Part shown: positions 8,225 to 51,395 of the stretch, one piece after another
How the letters are laid out: every line of letters starts with the position of its first letter
Numbering within the stretch: position 1 is the stretch's first letter
From: Parvularcula bermudensis HTCC2503
GTDB taxonomy: Bacteria; Pseudomonadota; Alphaproteobacteria; Caulobacterales; Parvularculaceae
DNA length: 64,000 bases
Assembly: GCF_000152825.2 (NCBI RefSeq)
Contig: NC_014414.1
Location: forward strand, 1,860,001 to 1,924,000
Direction: 5' to 3'
Notes under the pieces: model-generated
Told to the model about the DNA's origin: nothing
Databases searched by the model: none
Seen by the model: the letters and a program-made list of their open reading frames with translations, nothing else
Program-made: the position numbers and the translations under genes

Positions 8225-8311
8225 GCGGGTGTGGCGGAATTGGTAGACGCAGGGGATTCAAAATCCCCCGGTGGCAACACCTTGCCGGTTCGAGTCCGGC
8301 CACCCGTACCA
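8225..8311 (+). tRNA. tRNA-Leu (anticodon CAA)
   Basis: An 87-nt tRNA with the CCA end encoded (8309-8311). The acceptor stem GCGGGTG (8225-8231) pairs with CACCCGT (8301-8307), with a terminal G-U. The D-loop, anticodon stem GGGGA/TCCCC, variable arm and GGTTCGAGTCC T-arm are all visible. The anticodon CAA is at 8259-8261 and reads UUG. Size and the long variable arm agree with leucine class II tRNAs. No integrated element or duplicated 3' end follows it in this window. Confidence 0.97.
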
Positions 8312-44079: not shown

Positions 44080-45435
44080 ATGGTATCGGCGGCCGAACAA
44101 TTCGCATCCAACATCAATCTCAGCTCATTTGCGAAAGCCGATGAGCTGAAAAAGCGTCTATTGTTTACGATCGGTGCCCTCATCGTCTACCGAATCGGCA
44201 CGTTCATCCCGATCCCCGGGGTCAATCCGGACGCGTTTCGCGATTTGTTCAGCCAACAGACCGGCGGTCTTCTCGGCACCTTCAACCTGTTTTCGGGCGG
44301 GGCGACGGAACGGATGGCGATCCTGGCCCTCAATATCATGCCCTATATCTCGGCGTCGATCATCATGCAGATGATGTCGGCGGTGGTGCCTTCGCTTGAG
44401 GCCATCAAGAAAGAAGGGGAAAGTGGGCGCCGTCAGATCAACCAGTATACGCGGTATCTGACAGTGCTGCTCGCGACGGTGCAGGGCTATTTCATCGCGG
44501 CCACGATTGCGGGGACGACCGGCACGATCGCCGGGCAGACGGTGCCGGTGGTGCAAAACCCCAATGCGATCTTTTATATCACTACAACGGTGACGTTGGT
44601 TGGCGGCGTCATGTTCCTGGTGTGGTTGGGGGAACAAATTACCGCAAGAGGGATCGGCAATGGGATCTCCTTGATTATTTTCGCCGGGATCGTCGCAGAG
44701 CTGCCGCGGGCCGCCGCCGGATTGTTCGCCAGTGGGCGCACGGGCGCCATGAGCGCCTCTGTCATTGTGGGCGTGATCTTGGGGGCCATCGCCATCATTG
44801 CCTTCGTGGTCTTTATCGAACGGTCCCAGCGCCGCCTCGTGGTTCAGTATCCCCGGCGCCAACAAGGCAATCGAATGGTGCAGGGGGAGAAATCCCATCT
44901 GCCGCTGAAGCTCAATACGGCCGGCGTGATCCCCCCTATCTTCGCCTCGAGTATTCTCCTGCTGCCCGCGACGGCTCAGGCGGCGGTTGGCCAGGATAGC
45001 CCTCTGTGGCTGCAAAATATCCTGATTTATGTGGCGGTGGGCCAACCCCTTTATTTCGCGCTCTACGCGGCGGGGATCATTTTCTTCTGCTTTCTCTACA
45101 CCTCGATTGTCTTCAATCCCGAGGATACGGCTGACAATCTCAAGAAATATGGCGGCTACATCCAGGGCTATCGTCCCGGCACCCGGACCGCGGAATATAT
45201 CAATTATGTGCTCACCCGCATCACCGTGATCGGCGCGGCGTATTTGACTTTTGTCTGTCTGGTGCCGGAGTTTCTGAGGGCGCAAAATCCGGCGATTCCG
45301 ATTACGCTCGGGGGGACATCACTGTTGATCGTCGTCACGGTGACCCTCGACACGGTGCAACAGATTCAAGGACATCTCTTGGCCCAACAATATGAGTCGC
45401 TAATCAAGAAATCGAAACTGAGAGGGGCGCGCTGA
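44080..45435 (+). CDS. secY: Protein translocase subunit SecY
   Basis: A 451-residue channel of the Sec translocon in the inner membrane, with ten hydrophobic helices. Typical segments are RIGTFIPIPGVNP after the first helix, GGATERMAILALNIMPYISASIIMQ, the ribosome-docking loop KGGYI-type region near NLKKYGGYIQGYRPG, and a cytoplasmic tail ending IKKSKLRG. Its TGA overlaps the adk ATG by one base. SecE and SecG are not in the window. Confidence 0.98.
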   Translation: MVSAAEQFASNINLSSFAKADELKKRLLFTIGALIVYRIGTFIPIPGVNPDAFRDLFSQQTGGLLGTFNLFSGGATERMAILALNIMPYISASIIMQMMSAVVPSLEAIKKEGESGRRQINQYTRYLTVLLATVQGYFIAATIAGTTGTIAGQTVPVVQNPNAIFYITTTVTLVGGVMFLVWLGEQITARGIGNGISLIIFAGIVAELPRAAAGLFASGRTGAMSASVIVGVILGAIAIIAFVVFIERSQRRLVVQYPRRQQGNRMVQGEKSHLPLKLNTAGVIPPIFASSILLLPATAQAAVGQDSPLWLQNILIYVAVGQPLYFALYAAGIIFFCFLYTSIVFNPEDTADNLKKYGGYIQGYRPGTRTAEYINYVLTRITVIGAAYLTFVCLVPEFLRAQNPAIPITLGGTSLLIVVTVTLDTVQQIQGHLLAQQYESLIKKSKLRGAR

Positions 45436-46022
45436 TGATTGTTATTTTCCTAGGACCGCCAGGCGCCGGCAAGGGAACCCAGGCGGCGTATATCGCAAAG
45501 AGCCGCGGAATTCCGCAATTGTCCACTGGGGACATGTTGCGCGCGGCGATCAAGGCCGAAACCCCCGTGGGCCTCCAGGCGAAGGCGATTATCGAACGCG
45601 GCGACCTGGTCTCCGATGATGTTGTCGCTGGGATTGTGGCGGAACGGATCGACGCGCCGGACTGCAAGCCGGGGTTTTTGTTGGATGGGTTTCCCCGCAC
45701 CCTCGGCCAAGCGCAGATGCTCGATGATATCGTCAAAACGAAATCCTGCGATATCGACGTCGTGCTTGAATTGAAGGTCGATGAGGGCGCGCTGGTCGAT
45801 CGCCTCAGGACCCGGATTGAAGAGACAAAGGCCCGCGGCGAGCCGGTGCGCAGCGATGATAACGAAGAGGCGTTCCGGAATCGTCTGGAGGTCTATCGCG
45901 AGCAGACGGCGCCGCTTATTCCTTTCTACAAGGAGAAGGGTCTGTTGCGGGAAATCGACGGAATGCAGCCAATCGATCAGGTTTCTGCAGAGATCGACAA
46001 GGTTCTTGACAGCTTGTCTTGA
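45435..46022 (+). CDS. adk: Adenylate kinase
   Basis: Interconverts AMP+ATP and 2 ADP. The 195-residue protein has the P-loop GPPGAGKGTQ at 7-16, the AMP-site STGDMLRAAI, and GFLLDGFPRTLGQA. The LID region is short and lacks the four-cysteine zinc site, so this is the short form common in alphaproteobacteria. It is coupled to secY by a one-base overlap, and 148 nt separate it from rpsM. Confidence 0.97.
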   Translation: MIVIFLGPPGAGKGTQAAYIAKSRGIPQLSTGDMLRAAIKAETPVGLQAKAIIERGDLVSDDVVAGIVAERIDAPDCKPGFLLDGFPRTLGQAQMLDDIVKTKSCDIDVVLELKVDEGALVDRLRTRIEETKARGEPVRSDDNEEAFRNRLEVYREQTAPLIPFYKEKGLLREIDGMQPIDQVSAEIDKVLDSLS

Positions 46023-46124
46023 CGCCTGACCCTTAGGCTTTATAGATCCCGACTTCGCTCGAATTTCACCCGTGGTTTCGTGCGGCCCTCCCGAAAAGGG
46101 GCGCGCGCTGGAAAGTCACCCGCT

Positions 46125-46142
46125 GGTGCGGACCGCCGCACC
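46125..46142 (+). promoter_or_regulatory. Hairpin upstream of rpsM
   Basis: A perfect 7-bp stem, GGTGCGG (46125-46131) with CCGCACC (46136-46142) and loop ACCG, ends 28 nt before the rpsM GTG. In E. coli the alpha operon is repressed by S4 through a structured leader just here. Whether this stem plays that part is unknown. Confidence 0.4.
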
Positions 46143-46170
46143 CGCCCAAAGCATTGAGAGGCCAAATCAC

Positions 46171-46539
46171 GTGGCGCGTATTGCAGGGGTCAATATCCCC
46201 AACAACAAGAGGGTGCACATCGCCCTGACCTATATTCATGGAATCGGTCCGTCCCTCGCGAAGGAGATTACCGACCGCGTCGGGATCGCCGAAGAGCGTC
46301 GCGTCCAGGAGCTGTCGGATGCGGAAATTCTCCGTATCCGGGAGGCTATCGACGAGGGCTATACGGTTGAGGGCGATTTGCGCCGTGAAACCGCCGTCAA
46401 CATCAAACGTCTGATGGATCTTGGGTGTTATCGCGGCCTGCGTCATCGTCGAGGCCTCCCCGTGCGCGGTCAGCGAACCCATACCAATGCGCGGACCCGT
46501 AAGGGCCCCGCCAAACCGATCGCCGGGAAGAAGAAATAA
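46171..46539 (+). CDS. rpsM: Ribosomal protein S13
   Basis: A 122-residue small-subunit head protein. It starts at GTG 46171 (encoding [15 protein letters not shown]) with GAGAGG about 9 nt upstream; longer in-frame readings from 46072 run through a hairpin and are not conserved. Signature: [25 protein letters not shown]. Its TAA overlaps the rpsK ATG by one base. Confidence 0.97.
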
Positions 46540-46934
46540 TGGCACGCCAACCGCAACGTCAGGCCGTCCGCCGTCGCGAACGGAAGAATATCGTCAATGG
46601 CGTCGTTCATGTGAACGCGTCCTTCAACAACACGATGGTGACCATCACCGACGAGCAGGGCAATGCTGTGTCGTGGTCGTCCGCTGGGCATATGGGCTTT
46701 AAGGGGTCGCGCAAATCGACGCCCTTTGCGGCACAGATGGCCGCTGAGGATGCCGCGAAAAAGGCAATGGACCACGGCCTCAAATCGGTGGACGTTCTGG
46801 TCCGGGGTCCGGGGTCTGGTCGGGAGAGCGCTCTTCGGGCGTTGCAGTCCGCGGGCCTGACCGTCACCAATATTCGTGACGTGACGCCGATTCCCCATAA
46901 TGGTGTCCGGCCGCGCAAGCGTCGTCGGGTCTGA
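46539..46934 (+). CDS. rpsK: Ribosomal protein S11
   Basis: A 131-residue platform protein. It shows [38 protein letters not shown] and the C-terminal [18 protein letters not shown]. It overlaps rpsM by one base, and rpoA follows after 58 nt. rpsD (S4), which joins this cluster in some bacteria, is not here. Confidence 0.98.
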
Positions 46935-46992
46935 CGCTCATCGCGTTATTGCAGGGCGACCTCCTTGGGGGAGGCCTGTCCGAGGAGAAATT

Positions 46993-48009
46993 ATGCTCGA
47001 AAAGAATTGGCAGGAACTGATCAAGCCGCAAAAGCTTGAGGTGGTGTCGTCATACGATCCGCAACGGAAGGCGACGATCGTCGCTCAACCTCTCGAGCGG
47101 GGCTTCGGCCTGACTCTGGGCAACAGTCTGCGGCGAATTCTGATGTCTTCCCTTCAGGGGGCAGCGGTGACCGCGATCCAGATCGATGGCGTTGTGCACG
47201 AATTTTCGTCGATCCCCGGGGTTCGCGAGGACGTGACGATCATCGTGCTCAATATCAAACAGCTGGCCTTACGGATGCATGTTGACGGCCCCCGTCGGTT
47301 GACCCTCAAGAAACAGGGGCCTGGGATTGTGACCGCCGGCGACATTCAAGAGACCGCCGACATCGAAATCCTCGACAAGGATCACGTTATCTGCACCCTC
47401 GATGAGGGCGCTGATTTGCGGATGGAAATCACGGTTCAGACCGGTAAAGGCTACGTGCCCGCCGATCGCAACCGACCCGAGGATGCGCCGATTGGGCTGA
47501 TCCCCGTGGATAGCCTTTACTCGCCGGTGCGCCGGGTGAGCTATAGTGTCGAGAATACCCGGGAGGGACAGGTCCTCGACTATGACAAACTCATCCTCGA
47601 AGTGGAGACAAATGGGGCCGTGACCCCGGAGGATGCGGCGGCCTTTGCGGCGCGCATTCTTCAGGATCAGCTCCAAATCTTCGTCAATTTCGATGAGCCC
47701 AAGCGCGACGATCAGGGGGGTGCCGATGAAGAATTGCTCTTCAACGCCGCGCTTCTGCGCAAGGTCGATGAACTTGAATTGTCCGTCCGGTCGGCGAACT
47801 GTCTGAAGAACGATAACATCGTCTATATCGGTGACCTCATTCAGAAGACCGAAGCTGAGATGCTGCGGACTCCGAATTTCGGTCGGAAATCGCTGAACGA
47901 GATCAAAGAAGTGCTCGCGACCCTCGGCCTGCATCTCGGCATGGATGTGCCGGATTGGCCGCCGGACAATATAGAAGAACTCGCGCGTAAATTCGAAGAT
48001 CAGAACTAA
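46993..48009 (+). CDS. rpoA: RNA polymerase alpha subunit
   Basis: A 338-residue dimer-forming subunit. The N-terminal domain has [23 protein letters not shown]. The C-terminal domain (from about residue 250) has [20 protein letters not shown], with the UP-element-binding Arg, and [26 protein letters not shown] 46993 has GAGGAGAAA upstream and gives the normal length. It is followed by a terminator-like structure before rplQ. Confidence 0.98.
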
Positions 48010-48029
48010 TATTGGGAGGCGGCATCAAG

Positions 48030-48085
48030 CCGTCCCCCGGAGGTTCTGAAAAGGGGGAAGGGGGACGGTTCGCCCTTCCTTTTTT
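48030..48085 (+). promoter_or_regulatory. Attenuator-like structure between rpoA and rplQ
   Basis: Terminator form: GGAAGGG (48056-48062) pairs with CCCTTCC (48073-48079), followed by six T (48080-48085). Alternative form: CCGTCCCCC (48030-48038) pairs perfectly over 9 bp with GGGGGACGG (48060-48068), which uses the terminator's 5' arm and loop. A third weak stem CGGC/GCCG (48020-48032) would compete with the alternative form. Such exclusive pairings are the layout of an attenuator. What might switch it is not visible. Confidence 0.55.
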
Positions 48086-48165
48086 GTTCTCGCTGTGGCA
48101 GACGCTGCGGCTCTACCTTGTTCCAAACCATCCGGGCCCGTCCCCGGAGCAGTGGAGACTTTCTT

Positions 48166-48591
48166 ATGCGCCACGGAAAAGCGCACCGTCGCCTGAACCG
48201 CTCCGCCTCCCACCGGAAGGCGATGTTTGCGAATATGGCTGCCTCGTTGATCAAGCACGAGCAGATCACGACGACGCTGCCAAAGGCGAAGGAATTGAAA
48301 CCGATCGCCGATAAGCTGATCACGCTTGCCAAGCGGGGCGATCTGCACGCTCGGCGTCAGGCGATCAGCCAGATTCGCGACGTCGCGATGGTCGGCAAGC
48401 TGTTTGAGACCCTCGGGCCGCGCTACAAGGACCGCAATGGCGGCTATACCCGCGTGATGAAGGCGGGCTTCCGCTTCGGCGATAATGCCCCGCGCGCTGT
48501 CATCGAATTTGTGGACCGCGATGAAACCGCCAAAGGCGTGGATTCCGGTCCGACGGCGGACACGCACGTCGAAGAGTTCGCCGAAGCGTAA
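48166..48591 (+). CDS. rplQ: Ribosomal protein L17
   Basis: A 141-residue tunnel-exit-side protein of the large subunit: [24 protein letters not shown] starts it and [15 protein letters not shown] lies near the end, with an acidic tail. ATG 48166 has GGAG 8 nt upstream. It is last in the ribosomal series and is separated from rpoA by the attenuator-like element. Confidence 0.97.
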
Positions 48592-48660
48592 GGTTTCGCT
48601 GCTTGAACCGTTGGGTCGCTTGCCCGATATCGCTTTGGGGATAAGCGAGGTTATGACCCT

Positions 48661-50073
48661 ATGAAGCGTTTGTGGCCCCCCACCGGCGTCATTTTGGCGT
48701 TAGGCCTCGGTTTTGCCCACCCGGTCGCCGCGCAGGAGCCGACGTTTCAACCGGCAACCGATGCGGGGCTCCGCGCCACTTACGCGCCGGTTGTCGAAAA
48801 AACGGCGCCTGCGGTGGTCAATATCTACACTGAGCGCACTGTTACCCGACAGATGCGCTCTGTTTTTGACGATCCGTTTTTCCGCGATTTTTTTGGGGGG
48901 GTGCCGGGGGGGGCTCGGACCCGCCGCGAGAGCTCCCTCGGATCGGGGGTCATCGTGGATCAATCGGGGATCGTTGTTACGAACAATCATGTCGTCGAGA
49001 ATGCCGGCGCGATCAAGGTGGTGCTGGCCGACCGTCGTGAGTACGAGGCCGAGATCCTTTTGACCGATCCGCAGACGGATCTCGCGATATTAAGCATCGA
49101 CGCAGGCGCGCCATTGCCGGCGCTGTCCTTTGCCGACTCAGACACCGCCGCGGTGGGGGATATTGTCCTTGCCATCGGCAATCCGTTTGGGGTCGGTCAG
49201 ACGGTGACGAGTGGTATCGTCTCGGCCCTCTCCCGGACCGCTGCATCGGTATCGGACTATCAATTCTTTATACAGACGGATGCCGCCATCAATCCGGGAA
49301 ATTCCGGCGGGGCGCTTGTCGATGTCGACGGCAATTTGCTCGGTGTGAACACCGCCATTTATTCCCGGTCGGGAGGATCGAACGGGATCGGTTTTGCAAT
49401 CCCCGGTAATCTCGTCCGTCAGGTGGTCGACAGTGCCGTCGGTGGGCAAATGACGGTCCGCCGTCCCTGGTTAGGGGTTGAGGGACGATCCGTTGACAGT
49501 CGGTTGGCCGCAGCTGTGGGGCTCGACCGGCCGATCGGGGCGATACTCGAAGCGCTTTATCCAGGCGGTCCCGCCGACCTTGCCGGGCTGAAGGAAGGCG
49601 ATGTCGTTCTGGCCATTGGGGGCCAGGATGTCCTCAGCGCCGAGGCCTTGAAGTATCGGCCCGGGACCCGTCGCGACGGCGAAAGGGTGGCTGTCCGGTA
49701 TCTTCGCGATGGTCGAGAGCGGGAAACCCAGGTCCGCTTGGCGCTCCCGCCTGAAACACCAGCACGAGAGACCACGACGATTGGCGGAAGCTCCCCCTTC
49801 ACCGGAGCGACGGTCGCTAATCTCTCCCCGGCTTTGGCCGAAGAGATCGGCTTTCCCCCCCTGACCGAAGGGGTCGTTATTCTCGAAACGGTCCGTGGGT
49901 CGATCGCCAGTCGCTACCGCTTGGGCCGCGGCGTGATTATCCTCTCCGTCAACGGGGAGCCGATTGAGCGCGTGCGCGACCTCACCGCCGTCCTTAAGAC
50001 GTCTGCTCCTGGTTATCTTATTCAGGTGACGAACCGATCGGGACGGGTGTCGACTTTGAGGATAGGGCGATAG
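48661..50073 (+). CDS. DegP/HtrA-type periplasmic serine protease
   Basis: A 470-residue secreted S1C protease for envelope quality control. The signal peptide ends near AAQEP. The catalytic triad is His110 (VVTNNHVV), Asp140 (DPQTDLAIL) and Ser215 (NPGNSGGALVD). Two PDZ domains follow, about 255-345 and 385-465. It lies 69 nt after rplQ, and its TAG (50071-50073) overlaps the likely first codon of rarA. Which member of the DegP/DegQ/MucD group it is cannot be settled from sequence. Confidence 0.93.
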   Translation: MKRLWPPTGVILALGLGFAHPVAAQEPTFQPATDAGLRATYAPVVEKTAPAVVNIYTERTVTRQMRSVFDDPFFRDFFGGVPGGARTRRESSLGSGVIVDQSGIVVTNNHVVENAGAIKVVLADRREYEAEILLTDPQTDLAILSIDAGAPLPALSFADSDTAAVGDIVLAIGNPFGVGQTVTSGIVSALSRTAASVSDYQFFIQTDAAINPGNSGGALVDVDGNLLGVNTAIYSRSGGSNGIGFAIPGNLVRQVVDSAVGGQMTVRRPWLGVEGRSVDSRLAAAVGLDRPIGAILEALYPGGPADLAGLKEGDVVLAIGGQDVLSAEALKYRPGTRRDGERVAVRYLRDGRERETQVRLALPPETPARETTTIGGSSPFTGATVANLSPALAEEIGFPPLTEGVVILETVRGSIASRYRLGRGVIILSVNGEPIERVRDLTAVLKTSAPGYLIQVTNRSGRVSTLRIGR

Positions 50074-51395
50074 CAGGGGCGGGCGACGATCTGTTTTCCG
50101 CGTCGGGCCTTGCCGATGCGGCACCGCGACCTCTGGCGGATCGCCTTCGGCCACGCCAGCTGTCCGAGATTGTCGGGCAGGATCACTTGCTGGGGATCAG
50201 AGCGGCGTTCAGGCAACGGATCGAAGCGGGGCATCTGCCGTCACTCATCTTATGGGGGCCCCCGGGGGTCGGGAAAACCACGCTGGCCCGGCTTCTTGCG
50301 GGGGCCGTGGATCTCGAATTCGTCTCGATCTCTGCGATATTTTCGGGCGTTGCTGATCTCAGGAAAGTTTTCGAGGCCGCGGAGGGCCGCCGTCAAACGG
50401 GGCAGGGCACCTTGCTGTTTGTCGACGAAATTCACCGCTTCAACCGCGCTCAACAGGATAGTTTCCTGCCGGTGATGGAAAAGGGGACGATCACCTTGGT
50501 GGGGGCAACCACGGAAAACCCCTCCTTTGCCCTCAATGCGGCCCTTCTCTCCCGTGCGCAGGTGGTGACACTTCATCGTCTCGACGAGGCTGCCCTCGAG
50601 CAATTGCTCCAGCGGGCGGAGAAGGATATCGGCGCGCCGCTCCCGCTCACCCCCGCCGCGCGCGCCCAGCTTCTCGTCGCGGCGGACGGCGATGGTCGCT
50701 TCCTCTTGGGGATGGCCGAAGAAATTGCCGGTCTGTCTCTTGACGACGTCCTTGATGAGATGGGCTTGGCCGAGGCTATTCAACGGCGGATGCCGGTTTA
50801 CGATGCGAAGCAAGACGGCCATTACAATCTCGCCAGCGCGCTTCAAAAATCCGTACGCGGTTCCGACGTCGATGCGGCCCTCTATTACACCGCCCGGATG
50901 CTGGAGGCGGGGGAGGATCCGTTGTTCGTTCTGCGGCGCTTGGTGGTCATCGCCAGCGAAGATATCGGCAACGCGGATCCGGCCGCCTTATCCCTCGCCA
51001 TTGCGGCCAAGGACGCCTATCAATTTCTTGGCGATCCAGAGGGACATATCGCCATCGGCCAATTGGTCAGCTATCTCGCCACTGCTCCGAAATCAAATGC
51101 CGCTTATCGCGCGCTCAAAGACGCAAAGCGGCTCGCGCGGGAAGGGGGCTCCCCAATGCCGCCGCCCCATGCGGTGAACGCGCCCTCGCGCCTGATGAAG
51201 GCGCAAGGCTACGCCAAAGGCTATGTCTACGATCACGATACGGAGGAGGGCCATGCCGGGCTCGATTATTTCCCCGAAGGTCTTGAGCGGCGTGCCCTCT
51301 ATCAGCCGACCGATCGCGGGGCCGAGCGCGCCATCCGTGAGCGGAAAGCCGCTTATGACAGGCGGCGCGGAACGGCGGCGGAGACCAAGCCCTGA
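50070..51395 (+). CDS. rarA: Replication-associated recombination protein RarA (MgsA)
   Basis: An AAA+ ATPase that acts at stalled forks with SSB and RecA. Walker A is GPPGVGKTTLAR, Walker B is LLFVDEIHRFN, and the C-terminal tetramerisation region has ASEDIGNADPAALSLA and KSNAAYRALKDA. The family N-terminus (DLFSASGLADAAPRPLADRL) is encoded from about 50085, but no ATG, GTG or TTG precedes it in frame after a stop at 49995. The first usual start, TTG 50187, would lose about 39 residues. ATA 50070, with GAGG 8 nt upstream and overlapping the degP stop as ATAG, gives 441 residues, the normal length; CTG 50091 is the other option. Confidence 0.88.
   Translation: MAGAGDDLFSASGLADAAPRPLADRLRPRQLSEIVGQDHLLGIRAAFRQRIEAGHLPSLILWGPPGVGKTTLARLLAGAVDLEFVSISAIFSGVADLRKVFEAAEGRRQTGQGTLLFVDEIHRFNRAQQDSFLPVMEKGTITLVGATTENPSFALNAALLSRAQVVTLHRLDEAALEQLLQRAEKDIGAPLPLTPAARAQLLVAADGDGRFLLGMAEEIAGLSLDDVLDEMGLAEAIQRRMPVYDAKQDGHYNLASALQKSVRGSDVDAALYYTARMLEAGEDPLFVLRRLVVIASEDIGNADPAALSLAIAAKDAYQFLGDPEGHIAIGQLVSYLATAPKSNAAYRALKDAKRLAREGGSPMPPPHAVNAPSRLMKAQGYAKGYVYDHDTEEGHAGLDYFPEGLERRALYQPTDRGAERAIRERKAAYDRRRGTAAETKP

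Follow-up and report, generated by a model that had tools for sequence, protein, structure and literature searches.

The window analysed here is a stretch of 64,000 nucleotides of the marine bacterium Parvularcula bermudensis HTCC2503 (G000:C1:1860001-1924000) in a one-contig genome of 2,902,643 bases. Its gene order around the region of interest is rpsK, rpoA, rplQ and a serine protease-like gene (names assigned by eye). Both rpoA and rplQ are essential genes. A spacer of 156 nt separates the rpoA stop at 48009 from the rplQ start at 48166, and it contains two groups of RNA structures, one at each end. The features of the region are as follows.

46993-48009, plus strand: rpoA, RNA polymerase alpha, an open reading frame starting at ATG 46993, with 79-93% identity to its relatives.
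48000-48007, plus strand: 5′ arm of an anti-antiterminator outer stem, made of the last rpoA codons and the first base of the stop, from folds with the rpoA end.
48012-48040, plus strand: inner hairpin (48012-48023/48029-48040) that contains the upstream arm of the rival stem, seen in the minimum free energy fold once the rpoA end is included.
48030-48038, plus strand: 5′ arm of the rival, antiterminator-like stem (9-bp pairing).
48042-48049, plus strand: 3′ arm of the anti-antiterminator outer stem, from folds with the rpoA end.
48056-48085, plus strand: terminator-like hairpin (stem 48056-48062/48073-48079) with T6 at 48080-48085, found by scan, arms read directly.
48060-48068, plus strand: 3′ arm of the rival stem (9-bp pairing).
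48092-48111, plus strand: G-U rich middle hairpin, from folds; hairpins of other sequence occupy the same place in some relatives.
48123-48158, plus strand: RNA hairpin conserved in the genus (stems 48123-48125/48153-48155 and 48131-48136/48143-48148), present in 9/9 Parvularcula spacers.
48152-48158, plus strand: Shine-Dalgarno sequence of rplQ, GTGGAGA, with TGG supplying the 3′ side of the outer stem in the conserved hairpin, from sequence and folds.
48166-48591, plus strand: rplQ, ribosomal protein L17, within an open reading frame, with relatives in 58/62 family genomes.

For comparison we used a family set of 62 genomes, of which 58 had an rplQ match (absent from G002, G014, G042 and G058) and yielded 58 rpoA-rplQ spacers. 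Spacer length was 54-213 nt in the genus (n = 9) vs. a median of 36 nt in the 49 family genomes of other genera, counts that include one spacer of 146 nt (L039) that is overlong since its rpoA match ended early. The preliminary description of this locus had remarked that ribosomal operons usually run straight on here; in this comparison the long Parvularcula spacer is unusual. The scan gave no terminator-like site at 48592-48660, between rplQ and the protease-like gene, and the operon may therefore continue past rplQ. The spacer between rpsK and rpoA (46935-46992) has a G+C-rich inverted repeat of its own, and inverted repeats of other sequence were seen by eye at this place in some relatives.

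The preliminary description had proposed that a terminator hairpin with six T and a perfect 9-bp alternative stem share GGGGG in an attenuator arrangement. Both stems are present where it had placed them: the terminator core pairs GGAAGGG (48056-48062) with CCCTTCC (48073-48079), and the rival stem pairs CCGTCCCCC (48030-48038) with GGGGGACGG (48060-48068) through 9 Watson-Crick pairs. The two are mutually exclusive, because their cores overlap at GGG 48060-48062 and the remainder of the rival arm falls within the terminator loop; the core overlap amounts to three of the five G that had been named. Dinucleotide shuffling of 48010-48090 (2000 sequences) yielded a terminator under the strict rule 20 times and any perfect stem of at least 9 bp 54 times; no sequence combined a strict terminator with an overlapping rival of at least 9 bp. 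The strict rule found 11 terminator-like sites on both strands of 464 kb (the window and 20 further stretches, of 2.90 Mb), and the rival was longest here (9 bp), with 8 bp at one other site and at most 6 bp elsewhere. A loose rule gave 800 sites in the same 464 kb, too many for use as a control. In that run the native terminator scored 0.726 when folding the spacer alone and 0.998 once rpoA sequence was added, which shows that the fold depends strongly on the chosen start.

A third exclusive stem, absent from the preliminary description, runs through the rpoA stop. Here UCAGAACU (48000-48007) pairs with 48042-48049 through 7 Watson-Crick pairs and one G-U, enclosing the hairpin that carries the 5′ arm of the rival. 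We folded the RNA at successive nascent lengths, at equilibrium only and with an outcome that depends on the start point chosen. From starts no later than 48000 (ten of them, beginning at 47930), the terminator had a probability (P) of 1.00 at ends 48082-48087. With the free RNA starting between 48004 and 48030, the rival stem had P 0.97-1.00 at ends 48072 and 48078 and 0.64-0.97 at 48082, was mixed at 48084 (0.17-0.91), and at 48087 the terminator was back at P 0.80-0.98 for most starts (0.46-0.50 from 48016 and 48020). The energies were -47.0 for the stop-codon stem with the terminator vs. -37.1 for the rival. The computed folds thus look like the logic of a translation-sensitive attenuator, and the third stem is a plausible candidate for its sensor.

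In the relatives, the upstream halves of the spacers were hardly alignable across Parvularcula, and in G056 merely 12 nt precede the conserved hairpin. By a rule of -9 kcal and 5 T, terminator-like hairpins occurred in 5/9 genus spacers vs. 1/49 spacers of other genera, where the longer genus spacers offer more room. The five (P. bermudensis, G057, G054, G050 and G053) are unrelated in sequence. Those of G057, G054 and G050 begin 2-9 nt past the rpoA stop, with P 0.999-1.0, and have no upstream rival of at least 6 bp. In G053 there are rivals of 8-10 bp, unrelated in sequence, and other folds outcompete the terminator, which had P 0.0 in context. Positions 1-128 of this last spacer (L007) contain repeated complementary blocks, ACCTCTCCC and GGGAGAGG, that can form several exclusive stems of 8-10 bp and are perhaps an inserted repeat. 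Rivals in two of the five spacers, made by different sequences, lend weak support to a recurrent theme and none to a conserved element.

One account of the 5′ half is a plain leaky terminator, or an mRNA 3′-end hairpin past rpoA, that lowers or protects transcripts, with the rival stem arising incidentally from runs of G and C. The rival-free hairpins just past the rpoA stop in three relatives argue for it, as do the hairpin-rich intercistronic spacers before rpoA (by eye) and the lack of conservation of this rival stem. Against it stand the nine perfect pairs of the rival, the longest among the 11 strict sites, and the occurrence of rivals in G053 too. We judge this account evenly poised between right and wrong.

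The attenuator account assigns the rival a function. A ribosome at the rpoA stop would melt 48000-48007/48042-48049, the freed 48030-48038 would pair with 48060-48068 and so block the terminator, and transcription would read through into rplQ; with no ribosome, the terminator would form. The folds with the rpoA end free or masked and their energies, the lack of any shuffle with both elements, and the similar combination of terminator-like hairpin and rivals in G053 are in its favour. Several results weigh against it. In 1000 shuffles of the 45-nt middle that kept the terminator and the rpoA tail, 24 passed a threshold for switch-like behaviour (terminator P of at least 0.9 free and at most 0.3 masked, at end 48082), a threshold looser than the native values of 1.0 free and 0.02-0.05 masked. 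Even a free rpoA end does not keep the rival from leading at 48072, the short end, when the RNA starts at 47930-47960. The rival is already mixed at 48084 and the terminator regains its majority at 48087, so that an effect of the switch would need kinetics. Lastly, this 9-bp rival was found in 0/8 other Parvularcula spacers, three of which have the terminator-like hairpin with no rival of at least 6 bp. Conservation of the alternative pairing was the test that the preliminary description had set itself, and on this point its proposal fails: a conserved attenuator is rejected. What is left of it, and in this sense partly supported, is the exclusive stems, the attenuator-like anatomy and a plausible sensor in this species, and we consider sensing of rpoA-end translation unlikely. 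Were it to hold in this species, the stop codon of a core gene would form part of a translation-sensitive switch.

About 40 nt downstream of the terminator lies the 36-nt hairpin, likewise absent from the preliminary description. Directly upstream of rplQ, all nine genus spacers read CCAAACC[AG]TCCG, a variable stretch and GGAG[TC]AGTGGAGA, with 23 invariant bases ahead of the rplQ ATG across the nine Parvularcula spacers. The asymmetric internal loop AACCR/GYAG, which adjoins the short outer stem, is conserved. RNAalifold returned 9 pairs, identical to those set by hand, and 2/9 pairs were changed on both sides. Paired cells made up 98.8% in register vs. 27-49% when the arms were slid by 1-3 columns. 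The covariation score was reached by 0/500 shuffles and the number of two-sided pairs by 78/500; covariation is uninformative for the outer stem, because its three pairs never vary. Taken alone, the hairpin of P. bermudensis has a stability that is unremarkable given its composition (z -1.26, with 25/200 shuffles as good). In the control, the rpsK-rpoA spacers of the same nine genomes had no conserved block besides the Shine-Dalgarno sequence; shared descent is thereby only partly answered, all nine being of one genus. Within rplQ itself, 2/7 fixed residues in the first 10 codons used a single codon, and 13/99 did so overall; extra codon-level constraint at the rplQ start would appear to be little.

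The UGG of GUGGAGA lies in the outer stem, as in an expression platform, and its masking is partial. In folds extended by 33 nt of rplQ, both G of UGG had an unpaired P of at most 0.06 in 9/9 sequences, while the U had 0.47 in P. bermudensis and at most 0.04 in the other eight. With the same 33 nt, the minimum fold was not the conserved one in 4/9: that of P. bermudensis retains the inner stem only, and G057, G053 and G050 fold otherwise. The mean unpaired P of the Shine-Dalgarno core was 0.33 in the genus (n = 9) vs. 0.58 in the 49 spacers of other genera (one-sided Mann-Whitney p 0.0007, in a test that ignores relatedness and compares differing Shine-Dalgarno cores with overlapping distributions). 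In 6/9 genus sequences the core is about half open (0.43-0.48), inside the range of the other genera.

We built a covariance model from the nine sequences and searched the genus genomes with it, scoring 150 candidates per genome. One strong site per genome (52-67 bits) was found in 9/10 genus genomes, the next match being at 18.7 bits, and among the candidates scored all nine strong sites lay upstream of rplQ. The tenth genome (G058) counts neither way, because no rplQ was detected in it and its best match had only 15.8 bits. In an order-wide sample of 398 genomes, searched with stricter filters, only those nine exceeded 23 bits. The exact pattern, written from these same sequences, matched once in each of six stretches of the genome contigs, from Parvularcula mediterranea, P. 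maris, P. lutaonensis, P. oceani, P. dongshanensis and one Parvularculaceae MAG.

Several other identities for the element were rejected. Model R1, run on 55 loci of other genera, gave at best 14.2 bits, and the three alignments shown cover mainly the Shine-Dalgarno sequence and start codon, so that the motif is not common to other genera. The 13-base 5′ piece has no second exact genomic copy; there are three matches with one mismatch, of which that in L061 falls in what we take to be pheT. The conserved pieces matched 2331 bases of 23S rRNA no better than shuffles did, and mimicry of rRNA by primary sequence was set aside; r-leaders do not all mimic the rRNA site. As to described families, Rfam 15 had no relevant match in the window, and the 60 rplQ loci searched in relatives (4 from the genus) gave none that reached the gathering score; besides tRNA, all matches in the window and these loci were below that score. 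The sole match at gathering score within the window is a tRNA gene at 8225-8308.

The conserved hairpin at 48123-48158 is best read as a translational leader of rplQ that is specific to the genus and to which L17 may bind. As the 3′ part of the spacer, it places the rplQ Shine-Dalgarno sequence in a short outer stem beside the conserved internal loop, and it most likely sets rplQ translation. We infer that L17, or another ribosomal protein, would bind the internal loop, keep the outer stem closed and so repress its own synthesis. In the 5′ part (48000-48085), the fast-changing terminator-like hairpin probably reduces transcription into rplQ and, given the rival stem and the additional stem that reaches into the rpoA stop, may in this species respond to translation of the rpoA end. 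On balance we regard it as slightly more likely than not that the Parvularcula rpoA-rplQ gap is a two-part control region of rplQ, made up of a translational hairpin and a terminator-like hairpin. What the genus conserves of this control is the hairpin that covers the ribosome-binding site; an attenuator may exist in this species, but its pairing is not conserved.

Rather than being a target of L17, the conserved hairpin could act at the DNA level as a promoter of rplQ, or serve rplQ as a processing site. Its position directly past terminator-like hairpins, like a restart point, and the room for a promoter in several spacers would fit; the compensatory changes point to RNA, no sigma-70-type match (the one promoter type sought) was found on the plus strand of 45000-51000, and G056 has only its 12 nt ahead of the hairpin. 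We consider this quite improbable. A dual switch, in which the rpoA stop within the anti-antiterminator lets the finishing of alpha license rplQ transcription while the L17-bound hairpin trims translation, would tie ribosome output to polymerase output, and we think it very improbable indeed.

The translational leader that we favour has a counterpart in the literature. Eckert and Weinberg (2020) predicted an L17 r-leader for members of the Actinobacteria and Proteobacteria, mentioned Alphaproteobacteria when discussing it, and assigned a motif upstream of a single ribosomal protein gene to the product of that gene (PMC7247131). As in Parvularcula, the structured RNA lies ahead of rplQ, the sole gene regulated, and was identified by comparative genomics, with L17 as presumed ligand (PMC7247131). 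Going by that description, the Parvularcula hairpin may be a divergent form of the motif. L17 as the ligand of the Parvularcula hairpin would be a guess from position, of the kind made there (PMC7247131). A second motif, L17DE, is also associated with rplQ and lies downstream of L17 genes in Firmicutes, whereas the Parvularcula element is upstream (PMC7247131). Among the literature matches listed, no RNA element of rplQ was noticed besides L17DE and the predicted L17 r-leader, both from one paper (PMC7247131). Internal termination has been described in operons of Methanococcus maripaludis that include ribosomal protein and RNA polymerase genes, and was linked there to differential expression (PMC10450193). 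The P. bermudensis terminator-like hairpin is likewise internal to such an operon; that study concerns archaeal machinery and rests on read data, whereas ours rests on sequence (PMC10450193).

Attenuators of the trp type, coupled to translation, consist of successive exclusive stems with the ribosome as sensor on a leader peptide. The 5′ part of the P. bermudensis spacer shares the successive exclusive stems and the ribosome as possible sensor, and differs in that sensing would fall to the final part of a large gene instead of a leader peptide, and in that the pairing is not kept in relatives.

RNA control of rplQ is little described. At class level we extracted 69/290 spacers and inspected them by eye only. 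Another conserved hairpin stands before rplQ in family f81 of the class. Its core, GCCGGCNGTAGCCTNGAGCGACCGGC, was found in 4/4 sampled genomes with one base differing in L146 (sites L146:1421-1466, L150:1420-1466, L153:1927-1968 on the minus strand, and L199), ending 23-36 nt before rplQ. A model of this hairpin scored 55.3 bits in G553, one of the four genomes but not used for the model, and matched 6/290 genomes in all, including two weaker matches in other families that were not on the rplQ contig. It may be the L17 r-leader already published, or one more of the kind. A leader candidate limited to one genus would support the idea that rplQ control has been reinvented lineage by lineage, and the f81 hairpin points the same way.

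Other spacers of the family also have structure. Three members of genus g7 (L051, L052 and L053) have in common an rpoA-rplQ spacer of 122-144 nt with long conserved stretches, most of g7 having about 35 nt. In several family members of other genera (L021, L023, L028, L041 and L049 among them), short variable hairpins such as CTGAC..GTCAG and CCGGC..GCCGG were seen by eye, downstream of the rpoA stop and ahead of the rplQ Shine-Dalgarno sequence.
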